DNA of 42,840 nt from NCBI GenBank assembly GCA_020721965.1, contig DYLS01000027.1:3932-46771 (forward strand). Direction: 5' to 3'. This document shows positions 13,608 to 35,269 of the stretch, in pieces; the first letter of the stretch is position 1, and each line of letters opens with the position of its first letter. A program made the position numbers and the translations under genes. The DNA comes from Blastopirellula marina (lineage in GTDB: Bacteria; Planctomycetota; Planctomycetia; Pirellulales; Thermoguttaceae). The notes under the pieces are model-generated. The model saw only the letters and a list, made by a program, of their open reading frames with translations. It ran no database searches and was not told the origin of the DNA.

Positions 13608-15269
13608 CTAGTGGATCAGCGAACGGACCTCGTCAAGGAATTCGTCGTTCAAGAAATCTCCTTTTTGCATGAGGGATTGGATCTGTCCCTCGAGGCGGCT
13701 CTTTTCTTCCGGTGTCAATTCCTTGGCGGACGCGACAATGACTGGAATTTCAGCGGTCTCGGGCTTGGCCTTCAACGCGTCGAGCACGGCGAATCCGTCC
13801 ATTTCGGGCATCATCAGGTCGAGGATGATGAGGTCGGGCAATTCGCGCTGGATCGTTTCGAGTCCCGACTTCCCGTCGGCGGCCTCGATGATCTGGAAAT
13901 TTCCCTGCGACTGGAGGATGCGGCGGATCAGCCTTCGGGACTCGGGGCTGTCGTCCACGATGACGACGCGGTGGAAGCGGTCTGGCGCCACGCTGGTCAG
14001 CGCGGCCAGCAGGCCTTCCTGTGGTTTGTCCTCCGCGCGGGATGGAAGCACCACGTTGCGCGACCAGTTATCGCCGAGGATATATGGCTCGGCGGGCATG
14101 GTGTGGCCGGTGCAGTTGACGACCACGACATCCGTAGGCTTGATGGTTCCTGCGCGCACCAATTTGAACAGGCCCGCGAATGCGACTGCCGCCGCGGGTT
14201 CGGCGGAGAGACCCTCCATTTTTGCCAGGACGTGCATGGCGCGATAGGTCTCCTCGTCTGTGGCGCTTTCGAAGACGCCGTGAGTCTCGTTGACGTACTT
14301 GCGGAGCAGGGTGTAGGCGCGGCCCGGGTCTCCAGTGGCAAGTGTTTCGATGTGCGTGCGCGGCGAAAGGACCGGTTCGGCTTCCTCCAATCCCTTTTTC
14401 CAGGAGGTCACCATCGGGGCACAGCCGTCTGCCTGAATGGGCGCGATGGCTGGGATGCGGTCGACCAATCCCATCTGGCGCAGTTCGCGGAATCCCTTGT
14501 AGACGCCGATCGGTCCCATGCCGCCGCTGATGGCCTGAATATACCAATCGGGGGTGCGCCACTGGTGCGCGGCATTGGCAGGCGGCCCCAGCAGGGACGT
14601 CACCTGTTCGCTGATCTCGAAGGCAATCGTCTTCATGGCTTCGATGGAGGTGATGGTGCGCGCTCCCATGTCGAGGTACAGGTTGCGCTGTCGCGCGAAT
14701 TCCGCGGCCAGCTTCTTTGCCTGGTCATAGGAAGCGGTCACTTTGACGACTTGACTGCCATACAGCGCGATCTCACGCATCTTGACTGCGGGGACGAGGC
14801 TGGTGACGAACGCCCAGAGTTTGATCCCTGCTCGTGCCGCGTAGGCCGAATAGGAGATGGCGACATTTCCTGTGGAGGCGGCCACCATCTCGGTGATGCC
14901 CGCCTCTTTGAGCGCGGCAATCGTGACCGCGGCCTGCCGGTCCTTGAAGGAGGCGGTCGGTCCCTGACGCTCGTCCTTGATGAACAGGTTGGGGAGTCCC
15001 AGCATCATCCCAAGGTTGACGGCGCGTATCAGGGGCGATCCGCCCTCTCCAAGGCTCAGGGAAGGGTTGGGGTTGCGGATCGGCAGCAGTTCGCGATACC
15101 GCCACAGGTCGAAGGGACGACCCGCGATCTGGCGGAGAAAAGAATCCGCCAGCGAGTCGTACTCATATTCTGCTTCGCGCCACTGACTGTTACAACGAGG
15201 GCAATTGATGGAAGAAGGGAAATAAGGAGCGGCATGACCACAGTCCATGCACCGAACGACAAAAGACAT
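13608..15269 (-). CDS. Threonine synthase-like PLP enzyme fused to a C-terminal response-regulator receiver domain
   Basis: A 553-residue single open frame. Residues 1-30 form a zinc ribbon (C7, C10, C23, C26). Residues about 60-420 form a fold-type II PLP domain with the threonine-synthase signature KDERQGPTASFKDR (Schiff-base K109), STGN and the glycine loop SGGMGPIGVYKG. Residues about 430-550 form a REC domain with acid pair D439/D440, phospho-acceptor D484 in ILDLMMPEMDG and a SAKELTPEE switch region. Ordinary threonine synthase (O-phosphohomoserine to threonine) has no REC. The ATG at 15269 has AGGA about 10 bp upstream; the longer open frame overlaps the kinase gene and is not used. 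It lies 16 bp behind the hybrid kinase, which is its probable phosphodonor. The true substrate is unknown. Confidence 0.9.
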   Translation of the reverse strand: MSFVVRCMDCGHAAPYFPSSINCPRCNSQWREAEYEYDSLADSFLRQIAGRPFDLWRYRELLPIRNPNPSLSLGEGGSPLIRAVNLGMMLGLPNLFIKDERQGPTASFKDRQAAVTIAALKEAGITEMVAASTGNVAISYSAYAARAGIKLWAFVTSLVPAVKMREIALYGSQVVKVTASYDQAKKLAAEFARQRNLYLDMGARTITSIEAMKTIAFEISEQVTSLLGPPANAAHQWRTPDWYIQAISGGMGPIGVYKGFRELRQMGLVDRIPAIAPIQADGCAPMVTSWKKGLEEAEPVLSPRTHIETLATGDPGRAYTLLRKYVNETHGVFESATDEETYRAMHVLAKMEGLSAEPAAAVAFAGLFKLVRAGTIKPTDVVVVNCTGHTMPAEPYILGDNWSRNVVLPSRAEDKPQEGLLAALTSVAPDRFHRVVIVDDSPESRRLIRRILQSQGNFQIIEAADGKSGLETIQRELPDLIILDLMMPEMDGFAVLDALKAKPETAEIPVIVASAKELTPEEKSRLEGQIQSLMQKGDFLNDEFLDEVRSLIH

Positions 15270-15285: not shown

Positions 15286-18200
15286 TTATTTTTTCGCGCG
15301 TTCCAACGCGCGTTCCAGCGCGGCCACGAGCTCTGTTTTTGTGAGCGCATGTTTAAGTATCATGCGTTTACCAAATTCCTGCAACTGTTTTTGCTGGTCT
15401 GGCGTCAGGTCGCCGCCGCTGACGACAATGACGGGAATGTCACGTAGTTTATCATCGGAACGCATTTTTTCGAGCAGGGAGAACCCATCCATTTCGGGCA
15501 TGAACAGGTCGAGGATGACCGCGTGAGGGGCGCGCGCCTGGATGGTTTCCCAGCCGCGGCGTCCACCTTCGGCCAGGATGGGCTGGTAATGTCCGTGCCC
15601 GAAAAGCATTTGACCGATCAACCGCAGGTCGTTGGGATCGTCATCCACGATGAGAATCTCCCGCAGGTTGCCGTCGTTGTTCAGGCGGTCGAGGGCGTTC
15701 AACAGGTCGTCCTCAAGGATGGGCTTGACGAGGTAATCTGCCGCACCCAGGTTGAATCCTTTCTCCTGTTCCTCGACGATGGAACACACAATGACGGGGA
15801 CGTTGCGCGTTTCTGCATTGGATTTAAGATCGTTGAGCACATGCCATCCGTCATATCCCGGCATCATAATGTCCAGTGTGACGGCAAACGGCTTCAATTG
15901 GCGGACGCGCTCGACCGCCCGCGAGGGGTCGCTGAGCGGGACAACCTGATAGCCCTGCGGCTGGAGATAGCGTTCGTAGAGACTGATAACCTGCGGGTCA
16001 TCGTCAATGGCAAGAATGACACGCACACTTTGCGGGGTGGCGGTTTCGGGCTTGCCGCGGAAGGCGGGCAGAGTGAAATAGAACGTGCTTCCCTTCCCGG
16101 GCTCGCTCTCCACGCCGATGCGTCCGCCGTGCATTTGGACCAGGTGATTGGAAATCGACAACCCCAATCCCGAACCGCCGCTCTTGCGGGTGGGCGAGGC
16201 GTCCACCTGCGAGAAGGGTTGAAAGAGTTTTTTCTGGTCTTCCTGCGAAATGCCCGGACCGGTATCTGTAACGCTGACAGTGATCTCGGGGTGGCCTTTG
16301 GCATTGTCCGTGACGCTGGCATGCACGGTGATGGCGCCTTCGTCGGTGAACTTTGCCGCGTTCGAAAGCAGGTTGAGCAGCACCTGACGGATGCGCATCG
16401 CATCCGCGCGAACGGTGGGCAGGTCGGCGGGCAGATCGCGCTTCAGGGTGATGGTTTTATCCTTGACGAGCCCCGCCGCGGTGGACATGACGCTGGTGAT
16501 GAGTTCCGAAAGGTTGACCTCGTCGAAGGTCAGTTCCATCTTGCCCGCCTCGATGCGGGAAAGATCGAGGATATCGTTGATCAGGCCGAGCAGGTGTTGC
16601 CCGGAGTTATGGATGGCGAGCAGGTCCTGTTGTTGCAAATCTGTGATGGGGCCGTCGATGCCTTTCAGGATGACGCGTGAGAAGCCAATGATGGAGTTGA
16701 GAGGCGTGCGCAGTTCATGGCTCATGTTGGCCAGGAACTGGCTCTTGAGTTTATCGGCCTCGCGCATCTCTTTGACGGCCTGCATGGACAGTTCGTACGA
16801 GCGGGCGTTGTCAATAGCGATCGCCACCTGGTCGGCGAGTGTCTGGAGCACGGCAATATCGTCTTCACTGAAGGCGTTCGGCACGGTGGATTGAATGTCG
16901 AGCGCGCCGATGACGCGCGCCCCCACGCGCAGGGGGATGGCCGCTTCGGCGCGTGTCTCTGGCAGGAGCGGGTTGAACTTGTGCTTTTGACTTTCGACCG
17001 TATCGTTGACTACCACCGCGCGGCCGCTTTCCGTCACCTCGCCAACGATGGATTTGGAACCGACTTGCAGGCCGTGTTTCTGTCGCAGCATTTCGGCGCC
17101 CGCCTCGCCTGTAGCGGCCTGCAGGACGGCACGGAAACCTGTCTCCTCGGTGACGAAGATACCAGCGTGGTAAAAGCCAAATCGGTCGCGCACCAGGTTG
17201 ACGGTCCGCGAGAGAAGCGTGGGCATGTCCAGCGTGGAGGTGACGAGTTGTCCGATTTCTGCTGTCGCAGAAAGATATTCGTTGCGGCGAACGAGAGCCT
17301 GCTCCTGGCGCTTGCGCTCGGTGATGTCCAGCCAGATGCTGGCAAAGTTGGTGATCTCGCCCTGCGCGTTTTGCACAGGCGTGATGGTCTGTTCCACGAT
17401 GAAGAGGTTGCCGTTTTTATGGCGATTGGTAACCTCGCCATGCCAGGCCCGGCCGCTGAGGATGGTGTCCCACAGGTTTTTGTAAAATGGCTGATCGTGC
17501 ACTCCAGACTTGAACAAGCGCGGGGTCTGACCAACGGCCTCCTCGAAGGAGTAGCCGGTCTCTTTGGTGAACGCGGGGTTTACCCAGGTGATCTTGCCGT
17601 TCGTATCCGCCAAGACCACCGCGTTCGCCGCGGTATCGAGGGCGGTGCTTTGCAGGCGCAGCACGCTTTCTGCCTGTTTACGGCTGGTGATGTCGCGCGC
17701 CACCCAGAAGACCTCGCGGTCATTGAGGCGGGTGATACTTGCCAGGAACCAGTACTCCTGATTATCAATATCCAGTTTGTATTCGATCTGGACGGCTTCG
17801 CCTCCCTCCAGCGCCTGTTGGATGGCTTTGCGGAACGGCTCATGGGTTTCGGCAGGCAGGATCTCGTCTATGCGCTGGCCGAGCAATTCCTGCGGCGGAC
17901 GGAACAGGCGCGACGGGTTGGTGGGCGCGATGCGGACGTAACGCGTGTCCTTGTCGATGACCACGACCACGTCCTGCATGGACGCGAACAACGCGCGCAG
18001 GTCTGCCTCGGACCGTTGGGTGGCCTCGAACAATCGGGCGTTTTCGATGGCGAAACCGGTCTGGATGCCGATGGAACGCGCCAGTTCCAGGATGCGCGGT
18101 TCGATCACGCGAGGCTCGTGGTTGAACATGCACATGGTGCCGATCACGCGGCCTTTTGTCTCCAGCGGAACCCCAAAATAAGAAAGTATATTATTCTCGA

Positions 18201-19959
18201 TCAGCCCGTCGACGTTTACAGGAGCGCCATCTCGGATGTCGGGCAGGAAAATAACATTTTTATCGTTGTAGACATATTCACACAACGTGTTTTTGAATCC
18301 GTTTGTTTCAAGTGATTTTTGGATGGGCTGGGGCAAGTTGTGGTGCGTGATAAGTTTGAGTTCCCCAGCCGCTTCATCGAACAGGGACACCAATCCACCC
18401 GCAAATCCGCTGACTTCCATGGTCTGGCGCAGGATGCCGTTGAGTATGGATTCCAGTTCGAGCACCTGGCTTGCCGAGGAGACAATCTGGTTAAGCACGC
18501 CGAGTTCCTCGGTGCGGCGGCGGGTCTCCTCGAACAGGCGCGCGTTCTGGATGGAGATGGCCGCCTGTCCTGCCACTGCCATCAAAAGATCGCGGTCGTG
18601 TTCATCGTAGGCCCTGGCTTCGGTATAGGACTGCGCTGCCATGACGCCAATCGCCTGTTCGCCCAGAAGGAGGGGGACGCCGAGCCAGCACTTGGCAGGT
18701 TCGCCGATGACTTCGATGCCCAGTTTGTGCATGACTTCGGTCACATTTTCGGGGATGAAGATCGGTCTCCGCTCGCGAAGGACATACCCCGTCAGCCCTT
18801 TATCTGCAGGGAGGGTGGCAATGCTTTTATCGATGACGGATTCTGAAACGTTGAGCGGGAACGACATCTCGTGCCGCTCAGGCGAGTACAGGCCAATGTA
18901 AAAATTTTTTGCATCGATGAGTTGTTTCACACCTTTATAGATTTCCAGCAAAACCTCAGACACATTCAATTGGGACGACAGCCTTTGATTCAATTGGTTG
19001 AGCGTATCCAGTTCCCTCGTGCGGCGCTGGGTCTCTTCGAACAGACGCGCATTCTGGATCGCGATGGCGGCCTGGCTGGAGATGGCCGTCAGCAAGTCGC
19101 GGTGACGCTCGGTGAAGATATTCGGTGAATCAAGGTTTTGCACGCCCACCACGCCCAGCACGGTATCTCCCACCAGCAGGGGGGCGCCCATCCAGCATTG
19201 GGCGATGCGATTATTTCCAAATTCGACTACGTCGATCCCCAATTCCTTGACGCGTGTCGGCAAGTCCTCGGGGATGAAGAGCGGACGCCGCGTGCGTAAA
19301 ACGAAGTCGGTCAGGCTGTTCCCCAGACGGCGAGGGGACGCTTCGATACGTTCGCGATTCGAGATGACGTAGAACGGCGTAAGTTCCTGCTTCGTTTCGT
19401 CGAATGACGTGACAAACAGGTTGGTGGTGTCCATCAGGCGGCTGGCGTATTTATGGATCGTCTTTGCAATGGCTTCCACGCTGAAAAGGGACGTCAACTC
19501 GCGTCCCATTTCGTTCAGCACGGACAGTTCCTCCGCGCGTGAGCGCGTTTCCTGGAAGAGACGGGCGCTCTCCAGCGCCTGTGAGAGTTGGTCCACCACC
19601 TGCTTGACGAGCAGCTTCTCGTCGGTGTCCCACTCGCGCGCGGTGGCCTCGTCCACGACCTGGAGCGTGGCCCAGTTGCGATTGTCCATTTGGAACGCCA
19701 GCGAAAGGGACGAAGGCGTTCCCGTTCCGCCGCGCTGGGTGATGGCGGTATTTTCCAACGGAGGCAGACCCCTCGTCTGTGGAAGGGAGGCGTGCGGTGC
19801 GGGCCTCGTCGCGGCAGGATGCGCGGCGCTTACGGCAGGCTTTTTCTCGGCAGGACGCGGCGTCAACTTTCGCTTCGCCTTATCCTGCGGCTTGGCCTGC
19901 TCATCCTGCATGCCATCGAAGAGTTTGTCAAGCCGTTTGTTGGTTGGTTTCTTTGGCAT
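15286..19959 (-). CDS. Giant soluble hybrid histidine kinase: GAF x4, PAS x2, HisKA, HATPase, REC x2
   Basis: A 1557-residue protein without membrane helices. A Pro/Ala/Lys-rich tail (1-75) is followed by a short GAF-like segment, then GAF domains at about 150-300, 315-475 and 490-650, and PAS domains at about 655-775 and 780-900. GAF 4 lies at about 915-1060 and is of the RFGFYHAGIF type shared with the membrane sensors. HisKA has H1081 (NMSHELRTPLNS); HATPase has NLLSNAAKF, DTGPGIS and GGSGLGLS; REC 1 has D1363 and REC 2 has D1484. It is the only kinase in the minus-strand block. The ATG at 19959 overlaps the parA end by 32 bp; a TTG six bases upstream is possible. It probably phosphorylates its own RECs, the stand-alone RECs and the PLP-REC fusion. 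Confidence 0.92.
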   Translation of the reverse strand: MPKKPTNKRLDKLFDGMQDEQAKPQDKAKRKLTPRPAEKKPAVSAAHPAATRPAPHASLPQTRGLPPLENTAITQRGGTGTPSSLSLAFQMDNRNWATLQVVDEATAREWDTDEKLLVKQVVDQLSQALESARLFQETRSRAEELSVLNEMGRELTSLFSVEAIAKTIHKYASRLMDTTNLFVTSFDETKQELTPFYVISNRERIEASPRRLGNSLTDFVLRTRRPLFIPEDLPTRVKELGIDVVEFGNNRIAQCWMGAPLLVGDTVLGVVGVQNLDSPNIFTERHRDLLTAISSQAAIAIQNARLFEETQRRTRELDTLNQLNQRLSSQLNVSEVLLEIYKGVKQLIDAKNFYIGLYSPERHEMSFPLNVSESVIDKSIATLPADKGLTGYVLRERRPIFIPENVTEVMHKLGIEVIGEPAKCWLGVPLLLGEQAIGVMAAQSYTEARAYDEHDRDLLMAVAGQAAISIQNARLFEETRRRTEELGVLNQIVSSASQVLELESILNGILRQTMEVSGFAGGLVSLFDEAAGELKLITHHNLPQPIQKSLETNGFKNTLCEYVYNDKNVIFLPDIRDGAPVNVDGLIENNILSYFGVPLETKGRVIGTMCMFNHEPRVIEPRILELARSIGIQTGFAIENARLFEATQRSEADLRALFASMQDVVVVIDKDTRYVRIAPTNPSRLFRPPQELLGQRIDEILPAETHEPFRKAIQQALEGGEAVQIEYKLDIDNQEYWFLASITRLNDREVFWVARDITSRKQAESVLRLQSTALDTAANAVVLADTNGKITWVNPAFTKETGYSFEEAVGQTPRLFKSGVHDQPFYKNLWDTILSGRAWHGEVTNRHKNGNLFIVEQTITPVQNAQGEITNFASIWLDITERKRQEQALVRRNEYLSATAEIGQLVTSTLDMPTLLSRTVNLVRDRFGFYHAGIFVTEETGFRAVLQAATGEAGAEMLRQKHGLQVGSKSIVGEVTESGRAVVVNDTVESQKHKFNPLLPETRAEAAIPLRVGARVIGALDIQSTVPNAFSEDDIAVLQTLADQVAIAIDNARSYELSMQAVKEMREADKLKSQFLANMSHELRTPLNSIIGFSRVILKGIDGPITDLQQQDLLAIHNSGQHLLGLINDILDLSRIEAGKMELTFDEVNLSELITSVMSTAAGLVKDKTITLKRDLPADLPTVRADAMRIRQVLLNLLSNAAKFTDEGAITVHASVTDNAKGHPEITVSVTDTGPGISQEDQKKLFQPFSQVDASPTRKSGGSGLGLSISNHLVQMHGGRIGVESEPGKGSTFYFTLPAFRGKPETATPQSVRVILAIDDDPQVISLYERYLQPQGYQVVPLSDPSRAVERVRQLKPFAVTLDIMMPGYDGWHVLNDLKSNAETRNVPVIVCSIVEEQEKGFNLGAADYLVKPILEDDLLNALDRLNNDGNLREILIVDDDPNDLRLIGQMLFGHGHYQPILAEGGRRGWETIQARAPHAVILDLFMPEMDGFSLLEKMRSDDKLRDIPVIVVSGGDLTPDQQKQLQEFGKRMILKHALTKTELVAALERALERAKK

Positions 19960-20713
19960 ATTCAACTAACTCCTCGGCCAGGACGCGGTATTGAAGAGAA
20001 CCGCGGCTGTTGGGCATGTAACGTGTGATGGGTTGTCCAGCGATGGGGCTTTCGCGCAGTTTGGTATCCATTTCGATGACGGTCTCGAACATGCCGTCGC
20101 CAAATGTGGCGGCCAACTGCTCATAAATACTGCGATGGGTGCGGTTGCGGCGGTCCAGCAGGGTGACAAGGATGCGGTACGCCAGATTCGGGTTGGCTTC
20201 CTTGCGGATGCGGCGGATGACTGTCATCATATTGCGCAACGCATACGCCGAGAAATATTCCGCCTGCGTTGGAATCAGCAACAGGTCGGAGGCGGCCATG
20301 GCATTGAGCGTAATGGCGCCCAGCGAGGGAGGGCAATCGAGCAGGATGTAGTTGTAGTTCAGGTTGGGCGCCTCTTCCAATGCGGCGCGAAGGGTGGTCA
20401 GGTAATTCGAGCGCACGGGTAAATATTGTTCCGCGCTTTCGATGCGCGCGTTGCATGGCACCAGGTCCAGGCCTTCAAAATCCGTTTTGTGAATCGCACT
20501 CTGCAATGGCGCCGATTCGATCAATACATTGGCGGAGGTCTTCGCGGCCTCGGCGGGTTCAAATCCAAGGGCGAGCGTAAGATTGGCCTGCGGATCCATA
20601 TCGATGACAAGAACCCGGTTCCCAAGTTCGGCCAGCGCGGCGCCAAGCGAGAGTGTTGTGGTGGTCTTCGCGACGCCACCTTTTTCGTTCGAGACGGCAA
20701 TTGTATATTTCAT
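19928..20713 (-). CDS. ParA/Soj-family ATPase (orphan)
   Basis: A 261-residue deviant-Walker-A ATPase. KGGVAKTT (signature K11 and K16) lies near the N-terminus, switch I-like DMDPQANLT at about 39-47, and the Walker B-like LLDCPPSLG at about 125-133. ParA proteins form ATP-dependent dimers on nucleoid DNA and position plasmids, chromosomes, carboxysomes or chemosensory clusters. No parB gene and no parS-like cluster is seen nearby. The gene lies between the last membrane sensor (15 bp gap) and the hybrid kinase (32 bp overlap), with GGAGG before the ATG. The context points to positioning of a signalling assembly rather than chromosome partition; that is inference. Confidence 0.9.
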   Translation of the reverse strand: MKYTIAVSNEKGGVAKTTTTLSLGAALAELGNRVLVIDMDPQANLTLALGFEPAEAAKTSANVLIESAPLQSAIHKTDFEGLDLVPCNARIESAEQYLPVRSNYLTTLRAALEEAPNLNYNYILLDCPPSLGAITLNAMAASDLLLIPTQAEYFSAYALRNMMTVIRRIRKEANPNLAYRILVTLLDRRNRTHRSIYEQLAATFGDGMFETVIEMDTKLRESPIAGQPITRYMPNSRGSLQYRVLAEELVEYAKETNQQTA

Positions 20714-20728: not shown

Positions 20729-23257
20729 TTACTTCGCCTCGCGCCCTTCGCGCTCGCGGCCAGGAAGATGTGCCGAAACCACCTGCGGGATGATCTCGAC
20801 GCGGCTGACATTCAGGACGCGTTGCAGTTCCTCGACGGCGGTTCGGATCATGACCTGCGGGTCGTTGGTCTCCCGAATCCGAGACGTGATCTCAGCGACA
20901 GCGTGTTCGCGTGCCGCGCGGCTGGATGTCTCTTCGAACAAGCGCGCGTTTTCCAGCGCCAGCGCCAGACGGTCGGCAACCGCCTCGATCACCGCGACCT
21001 CGTCGCGGGTCCAGATCCGATTCGTGTCTGCCGAGCGGACGTTCAAAACGCCAATTACCTGATTTTGCAGTCGAATGGGGACCGCGACCGCAGAAATCTT
21101 TTCGTTCGACACGGCGGCCCTGCCCGTATCGAGCGCGGTCTTGATCTCGTCCCATTCGACGGGTTCTTCGAGCGAACTGCCCGTCCCCGCCGAATATTGA
21201 TATCCGACGATGGATTGTGCGGTCTTCTTCTCCCACGTCCGACTGACGTAGTCGCCGTATAGAGCCCGCGATTCCGCCAGGGCCTCGCGGGTCTCGGCGA
21301 GCAGTCGCGCATTCTCGATGGCGATGGCAACCTGGTCTGCAAGAATGCTCAAGGTTTCCACATCTGCGGAAGTGAACGCGCCAGACTTGGTGCTTTGCAC
21401 ATCCAGCACGCCGATGATCCGTCCGCGCACGGTGAGGGGGAGCGCCATCTCGGAACGCGTTTCGGGGAGGTCTGGGTTGTTGAAGAAGGTCGCGTCCTCT
21501 CCAACGTCGAGGGCGATGCGAGGGGTTCCGCTGGCGGCCACGTGTCCGACGATGCCAACCTGTCCGACGGGAAGGCTATGTTTGCGGGTGATCATCCGTT
21601 TGCCCCCCGGGCTATTGGAGGCGCGTAATACGGCGGTTTTGCTCACCTGGTCGATCAGGAATACGCCCACATGGTAAAAACCGAACCGATTGCTGACCAC
21701 GTTAGTGACGAGTTCCAGCAGTTTTTCAAGATCGATTTCCGTGGAGACGGCGCGTGCCACTTCACTGACCACCTGAAGTTCTTCAGCGCGCTTTGTACTT
21801 TGGGCGGTCGCCTGTTGCAAGTCGAGGGTGCGTTCCTCGACGCGTTCCTCCAGCGATTCGATCATATCGCGCAGGCGGGTGGTCATCACGTTGAAGGCGT
21901 TGGCCAGCACGCCCACCTCGTCACGCGTCTGGGTATGCGCTTCTGCGCTCAGGTCTCCTTCGGCGAGGCGTGTGGCCGTTTCTGTAAGTTGCATGATCGG
22001 TTTTGCCAGCGTATTCCCTGTCCAGCGCGAGACGAGCAAGGCGCCTGCCAGCAGCGCCAGCATACTCACGATCACGTTGGTCAGCGTTCGCTGTGACTCG
22101 TTCGCCAATCGCTCCTGGGTGGCCGCCAGCGTTGCCTGCGTTTCGCTGACAGGCACTATGATTCCCAGGCTGTAGCCGGTCGATGGAATGGGTTGATAGG
22201 CTACGTATTTTTCCGCGCCGTTCATGACCAATTTATGCACCCCGTTCTGGCCGGTGGTCATTCGTATCACAATGTCGAAGATGTCCAGTGGGACTTTGTC
22301 GAGAATGGTTTCCAACGCCAGTTCGCCCTGAAAATCGCTTTTCGAAAGGCCGAGGTCGGTAAAACCCGCATCGGGCATGGCAATGATGCGGCCGTCCTTA
22401 TCCAGCAAAAAGGCGTAACCGCTCTGGGCGAATCGAATGGCGCCAATTTGGTTGGAGATCTTCGCGAGTTGAAGGTCGGCCGCGGTCACGCCGCGGAAGC
22501 GATTGAAGTCATCATAGATGGGGAAACTGGTGGTGACGACCAGTCCATTCTGGGCGGCATCCTGATAGGGAACCGCCCAAACCACCTTCCTGTCCGGGTT
22601 TTGACTCGGACTGGCAAACTGGAACCAGATCCGCTTGGTGATGTCGAAGTCGGGCGGCAGGATGGCGGCCAGGTCCACATTGGGATAGTATAGCGTTTCC
22701 CCTTCCATGCTTCCAAAGTAGACGGCGATCATATCGGGGTTTTCTTTGAGCATGGAAGGCACAATAAAATCGAGTTGTTTAAGAATATTAAGTTCGGCAA
22801 CCAGCGAATCGGACAATTGATCATGTGGCGGCACGAATATCGAGCCGGCCTCCATATTTTGGTTATCCCAATTGCCATTTGGCAGGCGGGAAAGTTTATT
22901 CCTCGCATCCCAGGAACCACTGGCATTTACCGTTGCGTATGGTTTCAGGAGCAGTTGAATGGATGTTCCCAACGTTTCCATGCTGTTAGCGGCCGATGTG
23001 AAGAAATTGTCCAGGTCTCTGGCGTGACGCGCGGCCGCGAAGGTCAATTCCTTTTCGGTTTGATTTTCCACGCTTTCGGTGATCTGGCCGGTCAGGTAGG
23101 TGTTTGTCAGGCCAGTTCGATAAAAGGTATAGATGGTCGTCGCTGCCACGGCGATGGCCACAATCAGAACGGTGCTCCAACTGAGACGCGAGCGAAATGA
23201 CATGCCCGAGAACCAGCCGTTTCGGGCGGGGTTCGGACGGTCGGCAGAACTATTCAT
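20729..23257 (-). CDS. Membrane sensor dCache-HAMP-GAF-GAF without output domain
   Basis: An 842-residue protein. TM1 is at about 28-46, followed by an extracytoplasmic double-Cache domain (about 50-385) with RIWFQFA and a WAVPYQD segment typical of dCache ligand pockets. TM2 (391-412), HAMP (412-465) and an EERT-type coiled coil come next. The first GAF (about 505-655) is of the RFGFYHVGVFL...NNPDLPETRSEMALPL type. A divergent GAF with a YVSRTW entry motif spans about 680-790, and a 45-residue helical tail begins VAEITSRI. There is no HisKA, HATPase, GGDEF or methyl-accepting domain. The Arg-Trp-aromatic residues resemble amino-acid-binding dCache domains, but the full motif is not proven. 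It must signal through a partner. Confidence 0.88.
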   Translation of the reverse strand: MNSSADRPNPARNGWFSGMSFRSRLSWSTVLIVAIAVAATTIYTFYRTGLTNTYLTGQITESVENQTEKELTFAAARHARDLDNFFTSAANSMETLGTSIQLLLKPYATVNASGSWDARNKLSRLPNGNWDNQNMEAGSIFVPPHDQLSDSLVAELNILKQLDFIVPSMLKENPDMIAVYFGSMEGETLYYPNVDLAAILPPDFDITKRIWFQFASPSQNPDRKVVWAVPYQDAAQNGLVVTTSFPIYDDFNRFRGVTAADLQLAKISNQIGAIRFAQSGYAFLLDKDGRIIAMPDAGFTDLGLSKSDFQGELALETILDKVPLDIFDIVIRMTTGQNGVHKLVMNGAEKYVAYQPIPSTGYSLGIIVPVSETQATLAATQERLANESQRTLTNVIVSMLALLAGALLVSRWTGNTLAKPIMQLTETATRLAEGDLSAEAHTQTRDEVGVLANAFNVMTTRLRDMIESLEERVEERTLDLQQATAQSTKRAEELQVVSEVARAVSTEIDLEKLLELVTNVVSNRFGFYHVGVFLIDQVSKTAVLRASNSPGGKRMITRKHSLPVGQVGIVGHVAASGTPRIALDVGEDATFFNNPDLPETRSEMALPLTVRGRIIGVLDVQSTKSGAFTSADVETLSILADQVAIAIENARLLAETREALAESRALYGDYVSRTWEKKTAQSIVGYQYSAGTGSSLEEPVEWDEIKTALDTGRAAVSNEKISAVAVPIRLQNQVIGVLNVRSADTNRIWTRDEVAVIEAVADRLALALENARLFEETSSRAAREHAVAEITSRIRETNDPQVMIRTAVEELQRVLNVSRVEIIPQVVSAHLPGREREGREAK

Positions 23258-23284
23258 GGACCTGCTCCTGTCGTTGGTTTCGCA

Positions 23285-25039
23285 TCATGCCTCGACCTCG
23301 CTGGTTTGTTTCGGCGGCTGGATCTGGATCAACACATCCGAGCCGTTGAGCGCCTGGCTGAGTTCCTGCGCGGCGACCTGCAGGATGTTCTTCATGTGGA
23401 TGTTTCCGCTGATCTTTGAAGAAATGTCTGAAACGATCCGTTCCCGTGCGGCGCGATTGGCGCTTGTCATGAACAGGCGTGCGTTTTCGATTGCCAGCCC
23501 AAGGTGTTCCGCCACGGACTCGGCGATGTCGATATCGTCATCTGTCCAACGATCTTTCTGGTGTGTGGTTACGTGAAGGACGCCGATTACCTGGTCGCGC
23601 AATTTCACCGGGATGGCCAACTGGGCGGGTCTCCCGCTCTCGTCTGCGTCGGATTGATGGATGTTGCCCGCCTCGGCGACGCGTCCCGCCTCCCCAAGGT
23701 CCAGCGGCGATTCGAGCGGGGCGCTCGTCCCTCCGCTGTAGCGGAATCCCGACAGTCTTTCCTCACGGGCGAGATGGAACCATTCGTTTTGGACATACTG
23801 ACGATACGCGGCCTCCGTCTGCTCGAGGGAGCGGCGGGTGGTCTCGTAGAGACGGGCATTCTCGATGGCAATACTTACCTGGCCTGCGAGGATGGAGAGG
23901 GTGGCGATATCTTCATTCGAGATCGCGGCAGACTCGGTGCTTTGCACATCCAGCGCGCCGATGACCTTTCCAGCGACCTTGAGGGGGAGCGCCATCTCGG
24001 AACGCGTTTCAGGCAGGTCTGGGTTGTTGAAGTAGACAGCGTCCGCACCCACATCGCTGGCGAACCGCGGGGTGCCTGTCCCTGTTACATACCCGACGAT
24101 GCCTTCCGCACCGATTCTTAACTGGTGCTGACGACGCAGCATTTTTTGACCGCCTGCGCTGTTTGCCGCCGCAAGGACTGCATATTGGCCGCTTGGGTCA
24201 TTAAGGAAAATGCCCACATGGTAAAACCCGAAACGTTCGCTGACCACATTTGTGATGAGCGGCAACAACCTTTCCAGGTTCCGTTCGGCGGAGATGGCCT
24301 GTGAGATTTCGTTAATGGTCTGCAGGTCGCGTGCCCGTTTTTCGTTCTGCCGTGAGGTGGCCGTGAGTTCGGCGGTGCGTTCTTCGACGCGTCTTTCCAG
24401 CGCATCGCGCAGTTCGGTAAGTTCCTGGTTGCTTTTCCGCGCTTCCTGTGCGGATGTGCGCGCTTGTGTCAGGGCGCGATACAGGCTCTGAGAGGAGAGG
24501 ATCAGTCCAACGCCGGTCAGGACATAGACGATGGTGGTGGATACCCATTCGGCGATCGCATCTGCCGATTGGGTGAATATGGGGGTGATCCAACCGTTGA
24601 CGCGTCCGATGGCGATGATCAGTGTAAACAGGATGATCACAATGATCAGGCGGGCAACGGCACGGGCATCCAGCAGGAGGGTGGTAAATGCAATCAGGAT
24701 CAGGAAGCCAATCGCGGAACCGATGCTTTCCTGGGGACTCACCGCGTAGGCCGCGAAAATGGCGATACCGTTGATGATGATAAAAATATACGATGCCAGT
24801 TGGACGCGTCCGTTCCGCATCAGGGCGTAGGCGACGATGTTTACGACCAGGTAGGGTACGATCAGGTACACGAGGGGCAGCACATTCTCGGCGGTGGTGC
24901 TGAAGGCGAGAATGGGTAGCGCCACGAACATTGCACCAATGACGAAGCGCAACACCAAATATAACAACCCGGCTACCCGGTTCTTTTCTTCGTCTTCAAA
25001 CGTTGGCGCAGACAGGATCTGGCGCAATTGTTTCAACAT
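23285..25039 (-). CDS. Membrane sensor: 6 TM helices, coiled coil, GAF, divergent GAF, no output domain
   Basis: A 584-residue protein. The N-terminal 195 residues carry about six hydrophobic helices with only short loops, i.e. a membrane-embedded sensor rather than a Cache domain. A long coiled coil (ARTSAQEARKSNQEL to the ERRVEERTAEL element) leads into GAF 1 (RFGFYHVGIFL, NNPDLPETRSEMALPL), then the divergent second GAF (entry YVQNEW, core LAIPVKLRDQVIGVLHV) and the helical tail (IVSDISSKI). No kinase or other catalytic domain follows. Start ATG with GAGGAA upstream; gap to the next gene 27 bp. Paralogue of the neighbouring sensors, especially the 538-residue one. Confidence 0.87.
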   Translation of the reverse strand: MLKQLRQILSAPTFEDEEKNRVAGLLYLVLRFVIGAMFVALPILAFSTTAENVLPLVYLIVPYLVVNIVAYALMRNGRVQLASYIFIIINGIAIFAAYAVSPQESIGSAIGFLILIAFTTLLLDARAVARLIIVIILFTLIIAIGRVNGWITPIFTQSADAIAEWVSTTIVYVLTGVGLILSSQSLYRALTQARTSAQEARKSNQELTELRDALERRVEERTAELTATSRQNEKRARDLQTINEISQAISAERNLERLLPLITNVVSERFGFYHVGIFLNDPSGQYAVLAAANSAGGQKMLRRQHQLRIGAEGIVGYVTGTGTPRFASDVGADAVYFNNPDLPETRSEMALPLKVAGKVIGALDVQSTESAAISNEDIATLSILAGQVSIAIENARLYETTRRSLEQTEAAYRQYVQNEWFHLAREERLSGFRYSGGTSAPLESPLDLGEAGRVAEAGNIHQSDADESGRPAQLAIPVKLRDQVIGVLHVTTHQKDRWTDDDIDIAESVAEHLGLAIENARLFMTSANRAARERIVSDISSKISGNIHMKNILQVAAQELSQALNGSDVLIQIQPPKQTSEVEA

Positions 25040-25073: not shown

Positions 25074-26690
25074 TCATTTGTTTTCCAGGTTGAATTGAAC
25101 GGTTACTTCCGAGCCAGAGAGGGCGTGTCCGATCTCTTCGACGGCGGTCTGCATGATCTCTCGCAAATCCACGGATGAACCGATGCGCGCTGTGATCTCG
25201 CTGACGGTACGTTCTTTGGCCGCGCGGCGTTGGGACTCGATAAGCAGTCGGTAATTTTCCATGGCCAGCCCGGCGCGTTCGGCGGCGGCCTGTGCCAGAT
25301 TGACCTCGCCCTGCGACCATGCGCGTAGCGGGTTGCTGGAGCGGATGGTGATGTTGCCGATGGGTAATCCTCGGATGCGGATCGGGATTTGGATCGCGTT
25401 GGATTGGTCGGATGGTGTGGCGTCAGCGATGGGTGTGGTTTTCACGCCATCGTAAACGTAACCAGTGTGTTTGACGGTTTGCGCAAAACGCGCCCAGTCT
25501 TGTTCAACAAATTGCTGGTAGATGGCCTGTGAAGCCTCCAGCGATTGTTTGGTCTGGCTGAAGAGGCGGGCATTTCCAATGGCGATGGAGACCTGGTTGG
25601 CGAGAATTTCCAGGACGGCGATATCTTCCTCGCGAAACGCGTTGACCTCTTTGCTTTGGACGTCCAGCACGCCTGCCAACTGGCTTCCCACTTTGAGAGG
25701 CAGGGCCATTTCGGAGCGGGTATCGGGGAGGTCTGGGTTGTTGAAGTAGGCAGAGTCCGCTCCAACGTCCAGGGCGATGCGGGATTTTCCCTGTCCCGCC
25801 ACGGTGCCGACGATGCCAGTGGCTCCCACGCGCAGGCGGTGTCCACGTTTGAGCATTTCCTGTCCGCCTTTGCTGTTGGCGGCTTGAAGGACGGCGTATT
25901 CACTCCGCTCGTCCAGCAGGAAGATGCCGGTGTGGTAGAAGCCAAATTGCTTACTGATTACCTGGCAAATGGACGGGAGAAGTTCCTCCAGTTCCTGCAC
26001 GGCGGTGATGGAACGCGCCACCAATGCGACGGCTTCCATCTGCGATGCGCGGCGCTCCAGTTCGGCAGTACGCTCGTTGATGCGTGTTTCGAGCGAGTTT
26101 TTTAGTTGCAGAAGTTCCTCGTTTGCAACGATGCGCGACGCTTCGTTCGCGCGGGCTTCGGCGGCGATCTGCCTGAGGCGGTTGATCAAGGTGTTCAGGG
26201 CAACGATGATGGCGACAAAGATGAGCGGCCCTATAGCCAGTTCCTCCGGGGTGGTAATGGCGGGCACGGGGGGGATGAAGAGCCCCGTCACTTCTGCGAT
26301 GCCCATGCCGAGCAGGATGGCGATAGCAAGGACGCCAAACAGGATGAGGCCTTGTGTGCCGAGGAGCAATCCTGCCACCATCACACTGCCGAGCAGGCCG
26401 AGCAGACCGGTGTCGTGCGTTCCGCTTCCTTCCAGCATGAAGATCATGCTGACGAAGGCAATTGCCAGCGGTGTGAAGATCTGGCCTGGCCGTGTTTCTC
26501 CTCTCAGGGACAGGAAGATGGTGACGGCGACCACTGCCGCGAGTCCCAAAATGATGGCCGGGTTGCTGGCGAAGAATGTGATCAGCAATGCTCCAATCAG
26601 CACGATCGCCTGAATGGTGATCGCCAGCCTGCGGAAGGTAGCGGGATTTTCCTGGTATGGGTTGAAGAATCCTTGGACAGATTTGTTCAT
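25074..26690 (-). CDS. Membrane sensor: about 6 TM helices, coiled coil, GAF, divergent GAF, no output domain
   Basis: A 538-residue protein with about six hydrophobic segments in the first 170 residues (VLIGALLITFFA, IILGLAAVVAVTIFLSL, LLGSVMVAGLLLGT and others). A coiled coil with the INERTAEL element follows. GAF 1 contains FGFYHTGIFLLDERSEYAVL and NNPDLPDTRSEMALPL; the divergent GAF has the entry FVEQDW and core IQIPIRIRGLPIG; the tail contains VSEITARI. Its ATG overlaps the stop of the upstream sensor gene (ATGA), indicating translational coupling. It ends without a kinase. The 34-bp gap to the next gene holds a ribosome-binding site and nothing else visible. Confidence 0.87.
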   Translation of the reverse strand: MNKSVQGFFNPYQENPATFRRLAITIQAIVLIGALLITFFASNPAIILGLAAVVAVTIFLSLRGETRPGQIFTPLAIAFVSMIFMLEGSGTHDTGLLGLLGSVMVAGLLLGTQGLILFGVLAIAILLGMGIAEVTGLFIPPVPAITTPEELAIGPLIFVAIIVALNTLINRLRQIAAEARANEASRIVANEELLQLKNSLETRINERTAELERRASQMEAVALVARSITAVQELEELLPSICQVISKQFGFYHTGIFLLDERSEYAVLQAANSKGGQEMLKRGHRLRVGATGIVGTVAGQGKSRIALDVGADSAYFNNPDLPDTRSEMALPLKVGSQLAGVLDVQSKEVNAFREEDIAVLEILANQVSIAIGNARLFSQTKQSLEASQAIYQQFVEQDWARFAQTVKHTGYVYDGVKTTPIADATPSDQSNAIQIPIRIRGLPIGNITIRSSNPLRAWSQGEVNLAQAAAERAGLAMENYRLLIESQRRAAKERTVSEITARIGSSVDLREIMQTAVEEIGHALSGSEVTVQFNLENK

Positions 26691-28531
26691 GCTGTCTTCC
26701 GTTCTGTCGGGTTAATTTGCACCATGATCTCAGAATCTCCGATGGCCTTGCCGATCTCCTGGGCGGTGATGCGCAGGATGGCATCCACGTCGTGGGCGGA
26801 ATCGATGCGGGCGGCAATCTCGCCGAGGGAGCGTTCGTACGCCGCGCGCTGTTGCGCCTCTTCGAGCAGGCGGGCATTTTCAAGCGCAAGCGCCACCTGT
26901 GTGGCAATTTCTTTCAACATGGCTTGTTCGCGCGAATCGAGGGTCCCTGCTTCTTCTTTTCGTTTGACTTTGATCTCGCCGATCTTGTGGTTGTGGAGCA
27001 GGATGGGGATCTGAAGTCGTCCTGTCTCATCGGTCGGTGAATATTCTTTTGTTGCAGGCTGGATGCCGAGCGGGGTGTAGCGATAGGCATATCCCTGCGC
27101 CTGGGCGATCTCTTTCCAAGCCTCGCCAGCGCGTTCGGATGCAACCTGCTGGAGCTGTTGGACCGCATTGTTCATATCCTGGAGCAACCTGGCGTTTTCG
27201 ATGGCCAGCGCGAGTTGATCGGCAAGGGTTTGGAAGGTTTCAATGTCTTCGGAAGAGAAAGCCTGGGGCTGTTTGGATTGGATGTCCAGAACGCCGATGA
27301 CGCGGTCGCGAACGATGAGGGGCAGGGCGGCCTCGGAGCGGGTTTCGGGGAGGTCGGGGTTGTTGAAGTAAACCGCGTCCGCTCCGGTATCCAGCGCGAT
27401 GCGGGAGCGTTTCTGGGCGGCTACAAATCCCACGATGCCCTGTTTGCCGACTTGCAGGCGATGTCCGCGTGCGAGCATTTGCTGTCCGCCAACGGAAGAG
27501 GCGGCTTGCAGAATCGCATTATCGCCGTTCTCATCGAGCAGGAAGATGCCCGCGTGATAAAAACCGAATTGGTCTGATATCAGGCGAACCGCATCGTTCA
27601 ACAAGGTGGCTGTGTCTTTGATGGCCGCCGCCTGGCGGGCAACCTGGGTCGCGGCCTGGAGTTGCGAAGTCTTGCGGGAGAGGGCGAGGGTGCGTTCCTC
27701 CACGCGCTGCTCGAGACTCGTAACCAGGTCTTGTATTTTCCCGGCAGTGGCATTGAGGACGTTACCCAGAATCCCAACCTCGTCGTTCGTCCGTGTGTTG
27801 ACGCGATGGGTGAAATCGCCGGAGGAAAGCCTGTCTGCGCCGGCTCTCAGTTTCGAGAGGGGGACCGTCAGTGCAGTGCCGAATATCAAACCAAGGCCGA
27901 GGCCTCCCAGCATGGAAACGAGGAAGATCAACAAAGACCGCCTGAGCAGGGCGTTATCCTGGTCTATAATGATCTGGGCCGAGATGTCCATTCCGAGCAG
28001 GCCTTCCCGTTTCCCATTTGGCAGGTAGAAGGGGGCATAGCCGGTCAACCAGGTGCCCCACTTGTCGGTGTACATTTGATCCTCCACCGCCGGCGATTGG
28101 ATGGTGGAGAAATTTGCTTTCAGCCAGGGGCTGGCATCATCGTAGACGTCGCCCAAATGCGAGACATCCTCTTCGGTCTCTTCCGCATCCACCACGAAGA
28201 TGATGTTGCCTTGCGCGTCCTGTTGCATGGTGTAGACAAAGCGAACGTTCGTCCCCGCGTCGCGGATGTTTTGCAGGGTCTTCTTCAGCCGCATGTAGGT
28301 TGGGCCGCCTTCCTGCGAAGGATCGGTCAATTGCGAATGCGCTTCAGCGTCCACCTGCAATGCGCCAATTGCCACAGCATCCCGCAGGCGGGCGCGGATA
28401 TCGGACATTAATTGCGCACGGCCGTTTTGATAATAGATATAAGTGGTCAGTCCCGATGCTAACGTGAAGGCCAGCGCAAATCCGATTGCCAGTTTTATGC
28501 GCAGGGAGATAAAACGCGGGTTGCTATTCAC
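26687..28531 (-). CDS. Membrane sensor: extracytoplasmic domain, HAMP, GAF, divergent GAF, GTG start
   Basis: A 614-residue protein. TM1 lies at about 13-31, an extracytoplasmic domain of about 165 residues follows (contains VRFVYTMQQDAQGNIIFVVD, Cache-like), then TM2 (about 200-220), HAMP, and a coiled coil with VEERTLALS. GAF 1 has FGFYHAGIFLLDENGDNAIL and NNPDLPETRSEAALPL; the divergent GAF has an AWKEIAQ entry and LQIPILLHNHKIGEIKV core; the tail has LGEIAARI. No output domain. The start codon is GTG at 28531, overlapping the previous stop in the 8-bp element GTGAATAG. The stop overlaps the next start by four bases. Confidence 0.87.
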   Translation of the reverse strand: MNSNPRFISLRIKLAIGFALAFTLASGLTTYIYYQNGRAQLMSDIRARLRDAVAIGALQVDAEAHSQLTDPSQEGGPTYMRLKKTLQNIRDAGTNVRFVYTMQQDAQGNIIFVVDAEETEEDVSHLGDVYDDASPWLKANFSTIQSPAVEDQMYTDKWGTWLTGYAPFYLPNGKREGLLGMDISAQIIIDQDNALLRRSLLIFLVSMLGGLGLGLIFGTALTVPLSKLRAGADRLSSGDFTHRVNTRTNDEVGILGNVLNATAGKIQDLVTSLEQRVEERTLALSRKTSQLQAATQVARQAAAIKDTATLLNDAVRLISDQFGFYHAGIFLLDENGDNAILQAASSVGGQQMLARGHRLQVGKQGIVGFVAAQKRSRIALDTGADAVYFNNPDLPETRSEAALPLIVRDRVIGVLDIQSKQPQAFSSEDIETFQTLADQLALAIENARLLQDMNNAVQQLQQVASERAGEAWKEIAQAQGYAYRYTPLGIQPATKEYSPTDETGRLQIPILLHNHKIGEIKVKRKEEAGTLDSREQAMLKEIATQVALALENARLLEEAQQRAAYERSLGEIAARIDSAHDVDAILRITAQEIGKAIGDSEIMVQINPTERKTA

Positions 28532-30452
28532 GGCCGGTCTCCTCCTGCCCTTCGACGTTCAATTCGATGGTCGCCTCAGACAGATTGAGTGCGCGGCCGA
28601 TTTCCTTGACGGCGGTCTGCAGGATGCTGTCAATGCTGCTCGCCGACCAGACGCGCGTCGTGATATCGGCCACGGTGCGTTCGATGCTTGCCTGCTTGCG
28701 ACTCTCTTCCATCAGGCGGGCGTTTTCCAGTGCGACGGCGGCCTGTGTCGCCACGGCCTCCACCCAGGCCTGGTCCTCAGGCGACCACTCCCGCTCGCCC
28801 GTCAGGCTGATTTGCCCGATGACCTCGTCACGCAACGCGATCGGGACGTTGATGGCGGTCTCTGTTTCGAAAGGCGTTTCATCCCCGACCTTGTATTCGA
28901 GCGGTTTGTCTGCCGTGAGGGAGCGCCATGCCTCCCGCACGTACTGACGTTGTGTCGCCTGCAATTCCTGAATGCGCTGATTGGTCTCCTGGAAGAGGCG
29001 GGCATTTTCGAGCGCGACCGCCACCTGATTCGCCATGTTCTGGAGCGTTTGGATATCCTCCTGCCCGAAGGCGGCCTCGCGTGTGGATTGCACGTCCAGC
29101 GCGCCGAGGATTCGATCACCGATAATGAGCGGGAGGGCAATCTCGGAACGGGTGTACGGGAGCAGGGGATTGTTGAATCGGACGGGTTCCTGCCCAACGT
29201 CCAGGGCGATGCGCGCCTCTCTCTGACTGATGGCGGTCCCCACCATGCTTTTGCTGTCCACAGCCAGACGGTGACGCGATTCCCGCAGGACGCGCCCCAC
29301 TTCCCCTGTGGCGCTTTTCAACTCCGCCCATTTGCCTGTGCCATCCAGCAAGAAGATAGCGGAATAGTAATGGCCAAAACGATCGGTGATGAGGTTGACA
29401 ACCCTGTTGATCAGAAGATCGGGATCGAGGATGGCGCTGATGGATTGCCCGACCTCATTCACTGCGGACAACTGGGCGGTTCGTTCTGCAACTTGTTGTT
29501 CAAGGTTTTTGTTCAGACCTTCAATGCCTGAGATCATCTGATTAAAGAAGATGATCACTTTGCCTATCTCGTCTGTTGCAACGAGTTGGGCGCGTTCTGA
29601 GAAATCACCCTGCTCTGCTTTTTTTGACACCTCGATCAACATTTTGGCGGGGTCAGAGATTAAGGCGGCGAGGAAATATGTAAAGCCAAATCCAAGGACC
29701 AGGATGATCACGCTGATGGCAATGGATTGGAGTTGGAAAGTTCTGAGAACTTGCTCAAGATTTGCACCAACGATGATTGCCTTGGTGATTTGATGATATC
29801 CGATGGAGCCGAGGCTAAGTATCGCGGCCACGATCAAGGTTAAGAATGCCGATAGAATCTTGAATCGAATGGGCGTCCCGTACATTCCTTTGTGCTGGAT
29901 TTCGCTATCGGAGGGTGTTAGAGCGATTTGTGCTGGCAGGAGGACACGGCCTAAAACGAAATGTATAAATAAGGCAGCGATACTTACCGTGATCCACAAA
30001 CTCATGATCAAAAAGATGGTTTGATCCAAATTTGTAATGCCACTCGTGAACGTATACGTTAGTATGGGGATGATGTTCAGTGCAATCGTGACGAGTCCAA
30101 GAAGGCCGCTGTAGCGCCAAGGGAGGCTGGTGATTTCACGCCAACTAGCGAGTTGATCTGATGGATCGATGGTTGTTTTCCCTGATTTAATCGCATCCAG
30201 TACCTTGCGGCTGGAGGAGGTCATAAACCAGCCGATGATCAATACCAATAAATTTACGGCCACAATCAGGGGAATTCCCACACGAGCCCCTTGTTTCAGG
30301 CTTTCCCAGGGAAGCTCGGAGTTCCAACTCATCAGAAGAAAACCCAACGCCAGAATTGGCAGGGCAAGAAATTGTGTGGCGGCAATCACGATAATAATGT
30401 AGTAGCCCCCGGTGGCCTCCAGTAACCGTGATAGCGAGAATCGGTTGCTCAT
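28524..30452 (-). CDS. Membrane sensor: about 6 TM helices, HAMP, GAF, divergent GAF
   Basis: A 642-residue protein. Six hydrophobic segments (about 16-38, 58-77, 115-140, 145-170, 199-220, 242-265) precede a HAMP-like region (AEQGDFSERAQLVATDEIG). A coiled coil follows, then GAF 1 (RFGHYYSAIFLLD, NNPLLPYTRSEIALPL, a variant of the family motif), the divergent GAF (entry YVREAW, core INVPIALRDEVIGQI) and the tail (VADITTRV). No kinase domain. The ATG at 30452 overlaps the upstream stop by 4 bp. The membrane segment is more A+T-rich than its neighbours, which may reflect hydrophobic codons or a different origin of that module. Confidence 0.86.
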   Translation of the reverse strand: MSNRFSLSRLLEATGGYYIIIVIAATQFLALPILALGFLLMSWNSELPWESLKQGARVGIPLIVAVNLLVLIIGWFMTSSSRKVLDAIKSGKTTIDPSDQLASWREITSLPWRYSGLLGLVTIALNIIPILTYTFTSGITNLDQTIFLIMSLWITVSIAALFIHFVLGRVLLPAQIALTPSDSEIQHKGMYGTPIRFKILSAFLTLIVAAILSLGSIGYHQITKAIIVGANLEQVLRTFQLQSIAISVIILVLGFGFTYFLAALISDPAKMLIEVSKKAEQGDFSERAQLVATDEIGKVIIFFNQMISGIEGLNKNLEQQVAERTAQLSAVNEVGQSISAILDPDLLINRVVNLITDRFGHYYSAIFLLDGTGKWAELKSATGEVGRVLRESRHRLAVDSKSMVGTAISQREARIALDVGQEPVRFNNPLLPYTRSEIALPLIIGDRILGALDVQSTREAAFGQEDIQTLQNMANQVAVALENARLFQETNQRIQELQATQRQYVREAWRSLTADKPLEYKVGDETPFETETAINVPIALRDEVIGQISLTGEREWSPEDQAWVEAVATQAAVALENARLMEESRKQASIERTVADITTRVWSASSIDSILQTAVKEIGRALNLSEATIELNVEGQEETGRE

Positions 30453-34348: not shown

Positions 34349-34795
34349 TTATGTGTATTCCCAAACTGGCTCGTTATTTAAAATACGGCGGATCTGTTCG
34401 GGGAAGCGGTCTGGGTCGAGCGGCTTGCCGAGAAACCCATCGAAGCCCGATTCGCGCGCCTTTCGCATCTGTTCCTCGCTGGCCTCCGCTGTGACCGCCA
34501 CAATGGGGATGGATTTCAAATGTTCGGCTGAGCGGATCTTTTTGAGCGCGCCGTACCCGTCTTCATATGGCAGGCGGATGTCCATCAAAATCAGGTCGAG
34601 GTGGGGGAGCGTGTCGGCATATTCCACCACTTCGTAGCCTGAAGTTTTCCACTCGCAATGGATTCCCAGATAGCCCAACATGCGCGCGATCAGCACGAAA
34701 TTGGACACATTGTCCTCCACCACCAGGACGGTGGTGTCACTGGAGATATTTTTTTTGTGCGCGGGCTGGGCTTCGATATCGGTTGAATTAGTCAT
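34349..34795 (-). CDS. Stand-alone response-regulator receiver protein
   Basis: A 148-residue protein: about 20 polar residues, then a single REC domain (VVEDNVSN acid pair, phospho-acceptor D72 in LILMDIRLPYEDG, VAVTAEAS switch, GKPLDPD lysine). There is no DNA-binding or enzymatic domain, as in phosphorelay shuttles of the Spo0F/DivK/CheY kind. The ATG at 34795 is chosen because it overlaps the previous stop in the 8-bp element ATGACTAA. An upstream in-frame start at 34822 lies inside the preceding gene. Six bases separate it from the first sensor gene. Likely a phospho-acceptor for the hybrid kinase of this block. Confidence 0.88.
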   Translation of the reverse strand: MTNSTDIEAQPAHKKNISSDTTVLVVEDNVSNFVLIARMLGYLGIHCEWKTSGYEVVEYADTLPHLDLILMDIRLPYEDGYGALKKIRSAEHLKSIPIVAVTAEASEEQMRKARESGFDGFLGKPLDPDRFPEQIRRILNNEPVWEYT

Positions 34796-35174
34796 TGGAT
34801 TGCCTCGCCAGGAATCGGTCAATCTGCTGGGACAGGGTGTCGATGTCGATCGGCTTTTGGATATACCCGTCGCACCCAGCTTCGAGCGATTTCTCCCGGT
34901 CGCCGCGCATCACATTCGCGGTGACCGCCACGATCGGCACGTTGGCAAACCCCGGGGTGGCTTTGATGCGGGCGGTCAGGGCGTAGCCATCCATATCGGG
35001 CATGTTGATGTCCATCAGGATCAGGTTTGGACGTACCGAGTGAATTTTTCGCAGGGCATCCTCCGCGTTGGCGGCTTCGGCCATGATGTAACCTTCAGCC
35101 TCCAGCACGCGGCGGATGAGATTGCGGTTGTCGTGGTTGTCTTCCACGTACAGGATGATACTTTTTTCAGTCAT
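34788..35174 (-). CDS. Stand-alone response-regulator receiver protein (DivK-like)
   Basis: A 128-residue single REC domain: YVEDNHDNR acid pair, phospho-acceptor D55 in LILMDINMPDMDG, VAVTANVMRGD switch, IQKPID lysine. The MDINMPDMDGY and KPID forms are typical of DivK-like and polar-localisation regulators. The start at 35174 has GGAG about 8 bp upstream; the frame is open further but without homology. It is the first gene of the minus-strand block and lies downstream of the tRNA-Gly terminator, so a promoter should exist between 35175 and 35240, though I could not define one confidently. Confidence 0.88.
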   Translation of the reverse strand: MTEKSIILYVEDNHDNRNLIRRVLEAEGYIMAEAANAEDALRKIHSVRPNLILMDINMPDMDGYALTARIKATPGFANVPIVAVTANVMRGDREKSLEAGCDGYIQKPIDIDTLSQQIDRFLARQSND

Positions 35175-35232
35175 ATGCGCTCCGAGGGTGATTTTAACAG
35201 TCGGGAAAAAATCTTTCATAACAGCACCCTTG

Positions 35233-35269
35233 CAAAACAAAAACGCCAGGTCGGAAGGGCCTGGCGTTT
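35233..35269 (-). terminator. Intrinsic terminator after tRNA-Gly
   Basis: On the minus strand: a perfect 10-bp stem AAACGCCAGG / CCTGGCGTTT with a 9-nt loop, followed by TTGTTTTG. It directly follows the 3' end of the tRNA gene and separates it from the signalling block. Confidence 0.8.

Follow-up and report, generated by a model that had tools for sequence, protein, structure and literature searches.

A threonine-synthase-like PLP protein with a C-terminal receiver domain, usually encoded beside a histidine kinase in Chloroflexota

CheB, a receiver (REC) domain joined to a methylesterase, is the best-known case of a response regulator whose output domain is an enzyme. The protein described here is like such regulators in that it combines an intact REC with an enzyme and is encoded together with a histidine kinase. 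According to the available excerpts of PMC5847659, both bacteria and archaea have RECs joined to standard metabolic enzymes. The archaeal fusions named in these excerpts carry a KaiC-family NTPase, a BcsA-like glycosyltransferase, a thioredoxin reductase or a pyruvate phosphate dikinase, and have narrow ranges. Unlike them, the present protein carries a fold-type-II PLP enzyme and is found across a phylum, in 42 of 400 sampled genomes. The ornithine, lysine and arginine decarboxylases of the extended AAT fold, as described in excerpts of PMC8503589, are PLP enzymes with an N-terminal receiver-like wing derived from a REC. In both cases a PLP-dependent amino-acid enzyme is combined with a receiver-type domain. 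However, the decarboxylases are of fold type I with the REC-like domain at the N-terminus, whereas the present fusion has a PALP domain of fold type II and a C-terminal REC, whose phosphorylation residues are intact and which usually has a kinase encoded next to it.

Two further relatives are threonine synthase itself and a protein resembling it. Like the threonine synthase (ThrC) structures 1UIM, 2D1F and 2ZSJ (E about 1e-39), the fusion has the PALP fold, the Schiff-base lysine and the STGN motif; unlike ThrC, it has an added REC and different pocket residues, which are constant or nearly constant within the fusion family. The second relative is the type C protein, a threonine-synthase-like protein (PRK08197 equivalog) of about 400 aa from the same bacteria, which is a zinc-ribbon PALP protein as well and adjoins some of the type B fusions described below. 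Unlike the fusion, it belongs to another branch, has SFKAR and TAGN in its active site and scores 585 bits, well above the PRK08197 cut-off. The joining of a REC to a metabolic enzyme is already known, and a published description of a ThrC-like PALP+REC fusion was not found in a literature search covering mostly titles and abstract openings.

The window, which is the whole stretch of 42,840 nucleotides that was analysed, holds the fusion in a run of twelve closely spaced minus-strand genes, with two single-domain receivers first and an EamA gene last. From the first gene to the last these are, followed by two parts of the fusion:

34788..35240, minus strand: single-domain receiver, first gene of the run
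34349..34822, minus strand: single-domain receiver, second gene of the run
30449..34342, minus strand: HAMP + four-GAF sensor protein, no kinase domain by Pfam
28524..30452, minus strand: GAF sensor protein, no kinase domain by Pfam
26687..28531, minus strand: HAMP-GAF sensor protein, no kinase domain by Pfam
25074..26690, minus strand: GAF sensor protein, no kinase domain by Pfam
23285..25039, minus strand: GAF sensor protein, no kinase domain by Pfam
20729..23257, minus strand: dCache-HAMP-GAF-GAF sensor protein, no kinase domain by Pfam
19928..20713, minus strand: ParA/MinD-like ATPase (Pfam)
15286..19965, minus strand: hybrid histidine kinase with GAF, PAS, HisKA, HATPase_c and two REC domains (Pfam)
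13608..15269, minus strand: ThrC-like PALP + receiver (REC) fusion, 553 aa
12647..13594, minus strand: EamA-family transporter, directly downstream of the fusion (Pfam)
Fusion residues 390-433 (approximate): linker from PALP to REC
Fusion residues 435-552: REC, with D439, D440, D484, S514 and K536

The fusion is a single open frame that encodes an intact protein, in the domain order zinc ribbon, PALP, linker and C-terminal REC. Pfam places PALP at residues 72-387 (E 6.7e-61) and Response_reg at residues 435-532 (E 4.9e-20). The zinc-ribbon cysteines are C7, C10, C23 and C26, and the Schiff-base lysine of the PALP domain is K109. Upstream the frame stays open as far as 15350, but homology begins at the ATG at 15269. 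A sequence-only reading of the window had described one frame with a zinc ribbon, a PLP domain with K109 and a REC with D439/D440 and D484, placed 16 bp behind a hybrid kinase; the residues and the distance are as it had given them.

We aligned 84 full-length fusions, namely 55 of type A (window-like) and 29 others, many of which are type B with about 50% identity. Three partial fusions (L050, L130 and L141) and L154, in which the domain order is reversed, were left out of this set. All four cysteines, the K109, STGN, K163, SGGxGP and GH of the PLP domain and the D/E439, D440, D484, S/T514 and K536 of the REC are kept in 84/84 proteins, and are therefore intact in 55/55 of type A as well as in 29/29 of the others. 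The PALP-REC linker is 39-48 residues long in every one of the 84, which speaks against the stop or frameshift between the domains that the earlier reading had named as a possible flaw. An AlphaFold2 model of the fusion, based on a 16-row alignment, reached a mean pLDDT of 57.8, too poor to judge contact between REC and PALP. At locus L250 (7675-10110), one PALP fusion protein carries two receiver domains.

The gene neighbourhood was counted for 85 distinct fusion genes, L050 included. Of the 82 genes whose upstream sequence extends for 600 bp or more, 77 have a kinase core directly before them. The five exceptions are L038, where the kinase is split between two frames, L052, where it is found downstream, and L150, L246 and L247. 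An EamA gene lies downstream in 54 of the 80 fusion rows with at least 900 bp on that side, the locus L037 included. Among type A fusions with enough sequence it follows in 52 of 53, and the one miss, L150, is also without a kinase; in the window the gap between the two genes is 13 bp. Type B differs in 18 rows, where the downstream gene is a stand-alone receiver rather than EamA. GAF relatives and a ParA relative are found upstream in 13 of 16 loci each, the ParA relative being upstream of the kinase. In the window the ParA-like ATPase stands between the sensor genes and the hybrid kinase, and we take it to be reminiscent of chemosensory-cluster positioning systems. For the six Cache/HAMP/GAF sensors (20729-34342) Pfam finds neither a kinase nor another output domain. 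A promoter and terminator scan found promoter-like sites at chance level (3 vs 2.4).

The hybrid kinase is presumed to be the cognate kinase of the fusion. An adjacent kinase is no proof of phosphotransfer to the fusion REC; other receivers in type A are the two on the kinase itself and, in the window, the two single-domain ones at the head of the run. Two type B kinases were scanned (L233 and L240); as neither has a receiver of its own, the REC joined to PALP is the obvious target there.

Other genes near the fusion were recorded as well. Of 23 loci compared, 7 have a member of a GNAT-type protein family close to the fusion, and five of these 7 are near-identical genomes. The members of this family near type B fusions are about 290 aa long (L240, 1229-2092; L233, 5875-6741), the L240 copy being identified by Pfam and the L233 copy being a sub-threshold acetyltransferase match. 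It is possible that this protein modifies the product of type B fusions. At 7719-12650 the window has a convergent trio of a GAF kinase, a REC-kinase and a winged-helix response regulator, the last of which recurs next to the fusion in 8 of 16 loci. At 4149-5618 the window encodes a second PALP protein, 489 aa long and very divergent; it is cysteine-synthase-like in NCBIfam, below the cut-offs, and lies just above the Pfam cut-off.

On balance we favour, with moderate confidence, the reading that the fusion is a response regulator with a fold-type-II PLP enzyme as output, a probable non-threonine substrate and control by the upstream kinase. Signals in type A would reach the hybrid kinase from the row of GAF sensors, which lack a kinase domain themselves. 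The upstream histidine kinase would then phosphorylate D484 of the fusion REC, and the phosphorylation state would alter the activity of the attached enzyme in a CheB-like manner. For the product in type A, an amino acid or a derivative of one, the neighbouring EamA carrier may provide the way out of the cell. The idea of an amino-acid-derived signal as the product, raised in the sequence-only reading, is a fair one because the EamA carrier adjoins the fusion.

It is unlikely that the fusion is instead a genuine second threonine synthase under two-component control, although its annotation points that way. The best family models for the window fusion are threonine synthase, and the nearest solved structures are threonine synthases as well (best E 1.6e-39). 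The Schiff-base lysine and the STGN expected of a threonine synthase PALP domain are both there. RhtA, an EamA-family protein, exports threonine, which would suit the transporter gene. Nevertheless, the window fusion stays below both relevant cut-offs, with 150.3 bits against 167.1 for TIGR00260 (NCBI thrC) and 240.3 against 303 for PRK08197. It is also far from TIGR03844 (cysteate synthase), with 108.3 bits for a cut-off of 324.9. Several relatives pass the TIGR00260 cut-off narrowly, such as G130:C227 with 175.9 bits and G128:C110 with 168.4 bits, and the model would label these fusions ThrC because their scores exceed 167.1. The fusion of an apparent Herpetosiphon aurantiacus genome received scores of 166.9 and 168 in two separate scans.

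The pocket argues against this assignment. In the numbering of T. thermophilus ThrC, the canonical residues N154, R160 and Q164 and each of the positions 187-191 (GNAGN) are changed in 84/84 fusions, and S155 in 83/84, with one fusion keeping it. The replacements are themselves conserved: G154 is constant, as are the SGG and the final G of the loop, 83 of 84 have M164, and 80 have S or A at position 160. The SGGxGP loop occurs in 84/84 fusions vs 0/69 ThrC-like rows without a REC, while the canonical NS...R...QK and GNAGN occur in the ThrC of T. thermophilus and M. tuberculosis and in 11 full-length ThrC rows from Chloroflexota. Several of the changed positions presumably hold the substrate phosphate in ThrC. 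The argument on the substrate leans on such roles of the pocket residues, on which the available parts of PMC3174156, PMC9081730, PMC12172450 and PMC4302243 offered nothing usable. Judged by these sequence features, the PALP domain is a separate subfamily of the threonine-synthase superfamily, with a substrate that is probably other than O-phosphohomoserine.

A canonical ThrC is also present as a separate TIGR00260 protein (285-325 bits) in 8/8 well-assembled carriers, which are genomes in a few large contigs. All eight of these proteins have GNAGN and six have the exact NS..R.EGQKT string. In draft carriers a canonical ThrC was found in 13 of 16, two of them as cut genes. The fusion is therefore probably not the cell's threonine synthase. 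Of the earlier proposal, that of a PLP enzyme under receiver control with a neighbouring kinase is borne out by the upstream kinases and the conserved REC residues, while a threonine synthase of primary metabolism does not fit with the separate ThrC and the different pocket.

We consider it improbable that the PALP half works as a ligand sensor, which binds PLP and an amino acid and tunes the drain of phosphate from the kinase into the REC, with any chemistry being incidental. A sensor or a phosphate sink would be in keeping with the kinase that usually accompanies the fusion, and also with a REC of the type found at the C-terminus of hybrid kinases. However, K109, STGN, K163 and SGGxGP are invariant in 84 proteins, as in a working enzyme, and the adjoining EamA gene suggests that there is a product.

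A scan of named genomes found the fusion in 16 assemblies at 55-85% identity, all of them from Chloroflexota groups; in one of them (L050) it is cut by the contig end. The sequence-only reading would have fallen if the fusion were confined to one assembly, which is not the case. In the order of one carrier (G131, L042, an Anaerolineales genome), 241 of 400 genomes match the fusion at E<=1e-50, 27 of them with values like those of ordinary ThrC (1e-50 to 1e-58). Fusion-level matches (E<=1e-114) were found in 214 of the 400 genomes, with the matches listed covering part of these 214. In the phylum-wide sample, the 42 genomes match at E<=1e-90, and both domains are covered in every match listed. 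One carrier, G629, is apparently Herpetosiphon aurantiacus.

Sixteen genomes with weak rows in the order-wide search were searched again. In 12 the best match spans PALP and REC, the remaining ones are fragments lying at contig ends or a copy that carries an insertion, and no REC-less member of the fusion subfamily was found among the 16. Damaged copies exist, one frameshifted in G504 and one deleted in G158. At L310 (about 2406-4000) the first half of PALP runs in frame into EamA-like sequence, as judged by eye, which is apparently a deletion or a misassembly. No relative of the fusion was found among 26 pattern matches in a viral collection. The 182 plasmid records are all below 60% identity to the fusion, and SGGxGP was absent in the three that were inspected.

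The assembly with the window is probably a mixed bin, and the window contig is probably mis-binned there. The argG of the window contig is only 52% identical to the other argG of the assembly, and argG copies of the same genus are 51% identical to it in two genomes, with no match in a third. For the 119 genomes of the assembly's family, the best matches listed show the fusion in one genome, the assembly itself; among 294 genomes of its phylum the assembly is again the one carrier. Five genes of the fusion neighbourhood match the Anaerolineales genome L037 with 73-85% identity and in the same order. GC content did not discriminate on this question. The assembly does have another ThrC gene, of the kind that the earlier reading had suggested looking for, but with a window contig that looks mis-binned this gene is uninformative about the true host. 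The argG mismatch, the distribution of the fusion and the L037 gene order led us to reject the assembly as a source for this question, which the well-assembled carriers answer instead.

That an assembly or frameshift artefact joined two genes is very nearly dismissed, since, although the window contig looks mis-binned, the gene is unaffected by this, the fusion is spread over many genomes with a near-constant linker in 84 full-length proteins, and it is also present in the apparent H. aurantiacus genome, a Sanger assembly.

In a PALP tree of 95 rows, all 41 fusions with a C-terminal REC lie on one side of a branch with support 100/100 and a stem of 1.6 changes per site, and there is no REC-less row among them. 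For this tree type A was thinned to every fifth protein (11) and the ThrC rows of the family to which the window's assembly belongs were thinned as well; midpoint rooting was used for drawing only. At L154 (2292-3911, strain Ch132) a REC precedes a threonine-synthase-like domain of type C, beside a second ParA; this is an independent fusion event.

The receivers of the fusions fall together with C-terminal RECs of hybrid kinases, among them the RECs of the kinases encoded next to the fusions (SH-aLRT 99 and 93). This was a quick tree of 123 columns with many unresolved forks, in which the fusion receivers are not one clade (3 changes), and they may be of single origin. A simple story, which is not proven, is that the last receiver of a hybrid kinase became attached to the neighbouring PALP gene.

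The fusions define a subfamily of PLP enzymes whose members, as far as encountered here, all carry a receiver. If the favoured reading is true, a sensor kinase would control amino-acid chemistry through one phosphorylated protein, bypassing gene expression. The carriers belong to Chloroflexota, a group known mostly from metagenomes, and the apparent cultured carrier H. aurantiacus makes the fusion reading testable. More tentatively, the fusions could form a phylum-wide class in which kinases act directly on a neofunctionalised PLP enzyme family that serves solely as response-regulator output, with the exported type A product being a new extracellular or community signal. The findings suggest that many Chloroflexota cells switch an amino-acid reaction directly in response to signals, by means of a kinase-linked fusion protein.
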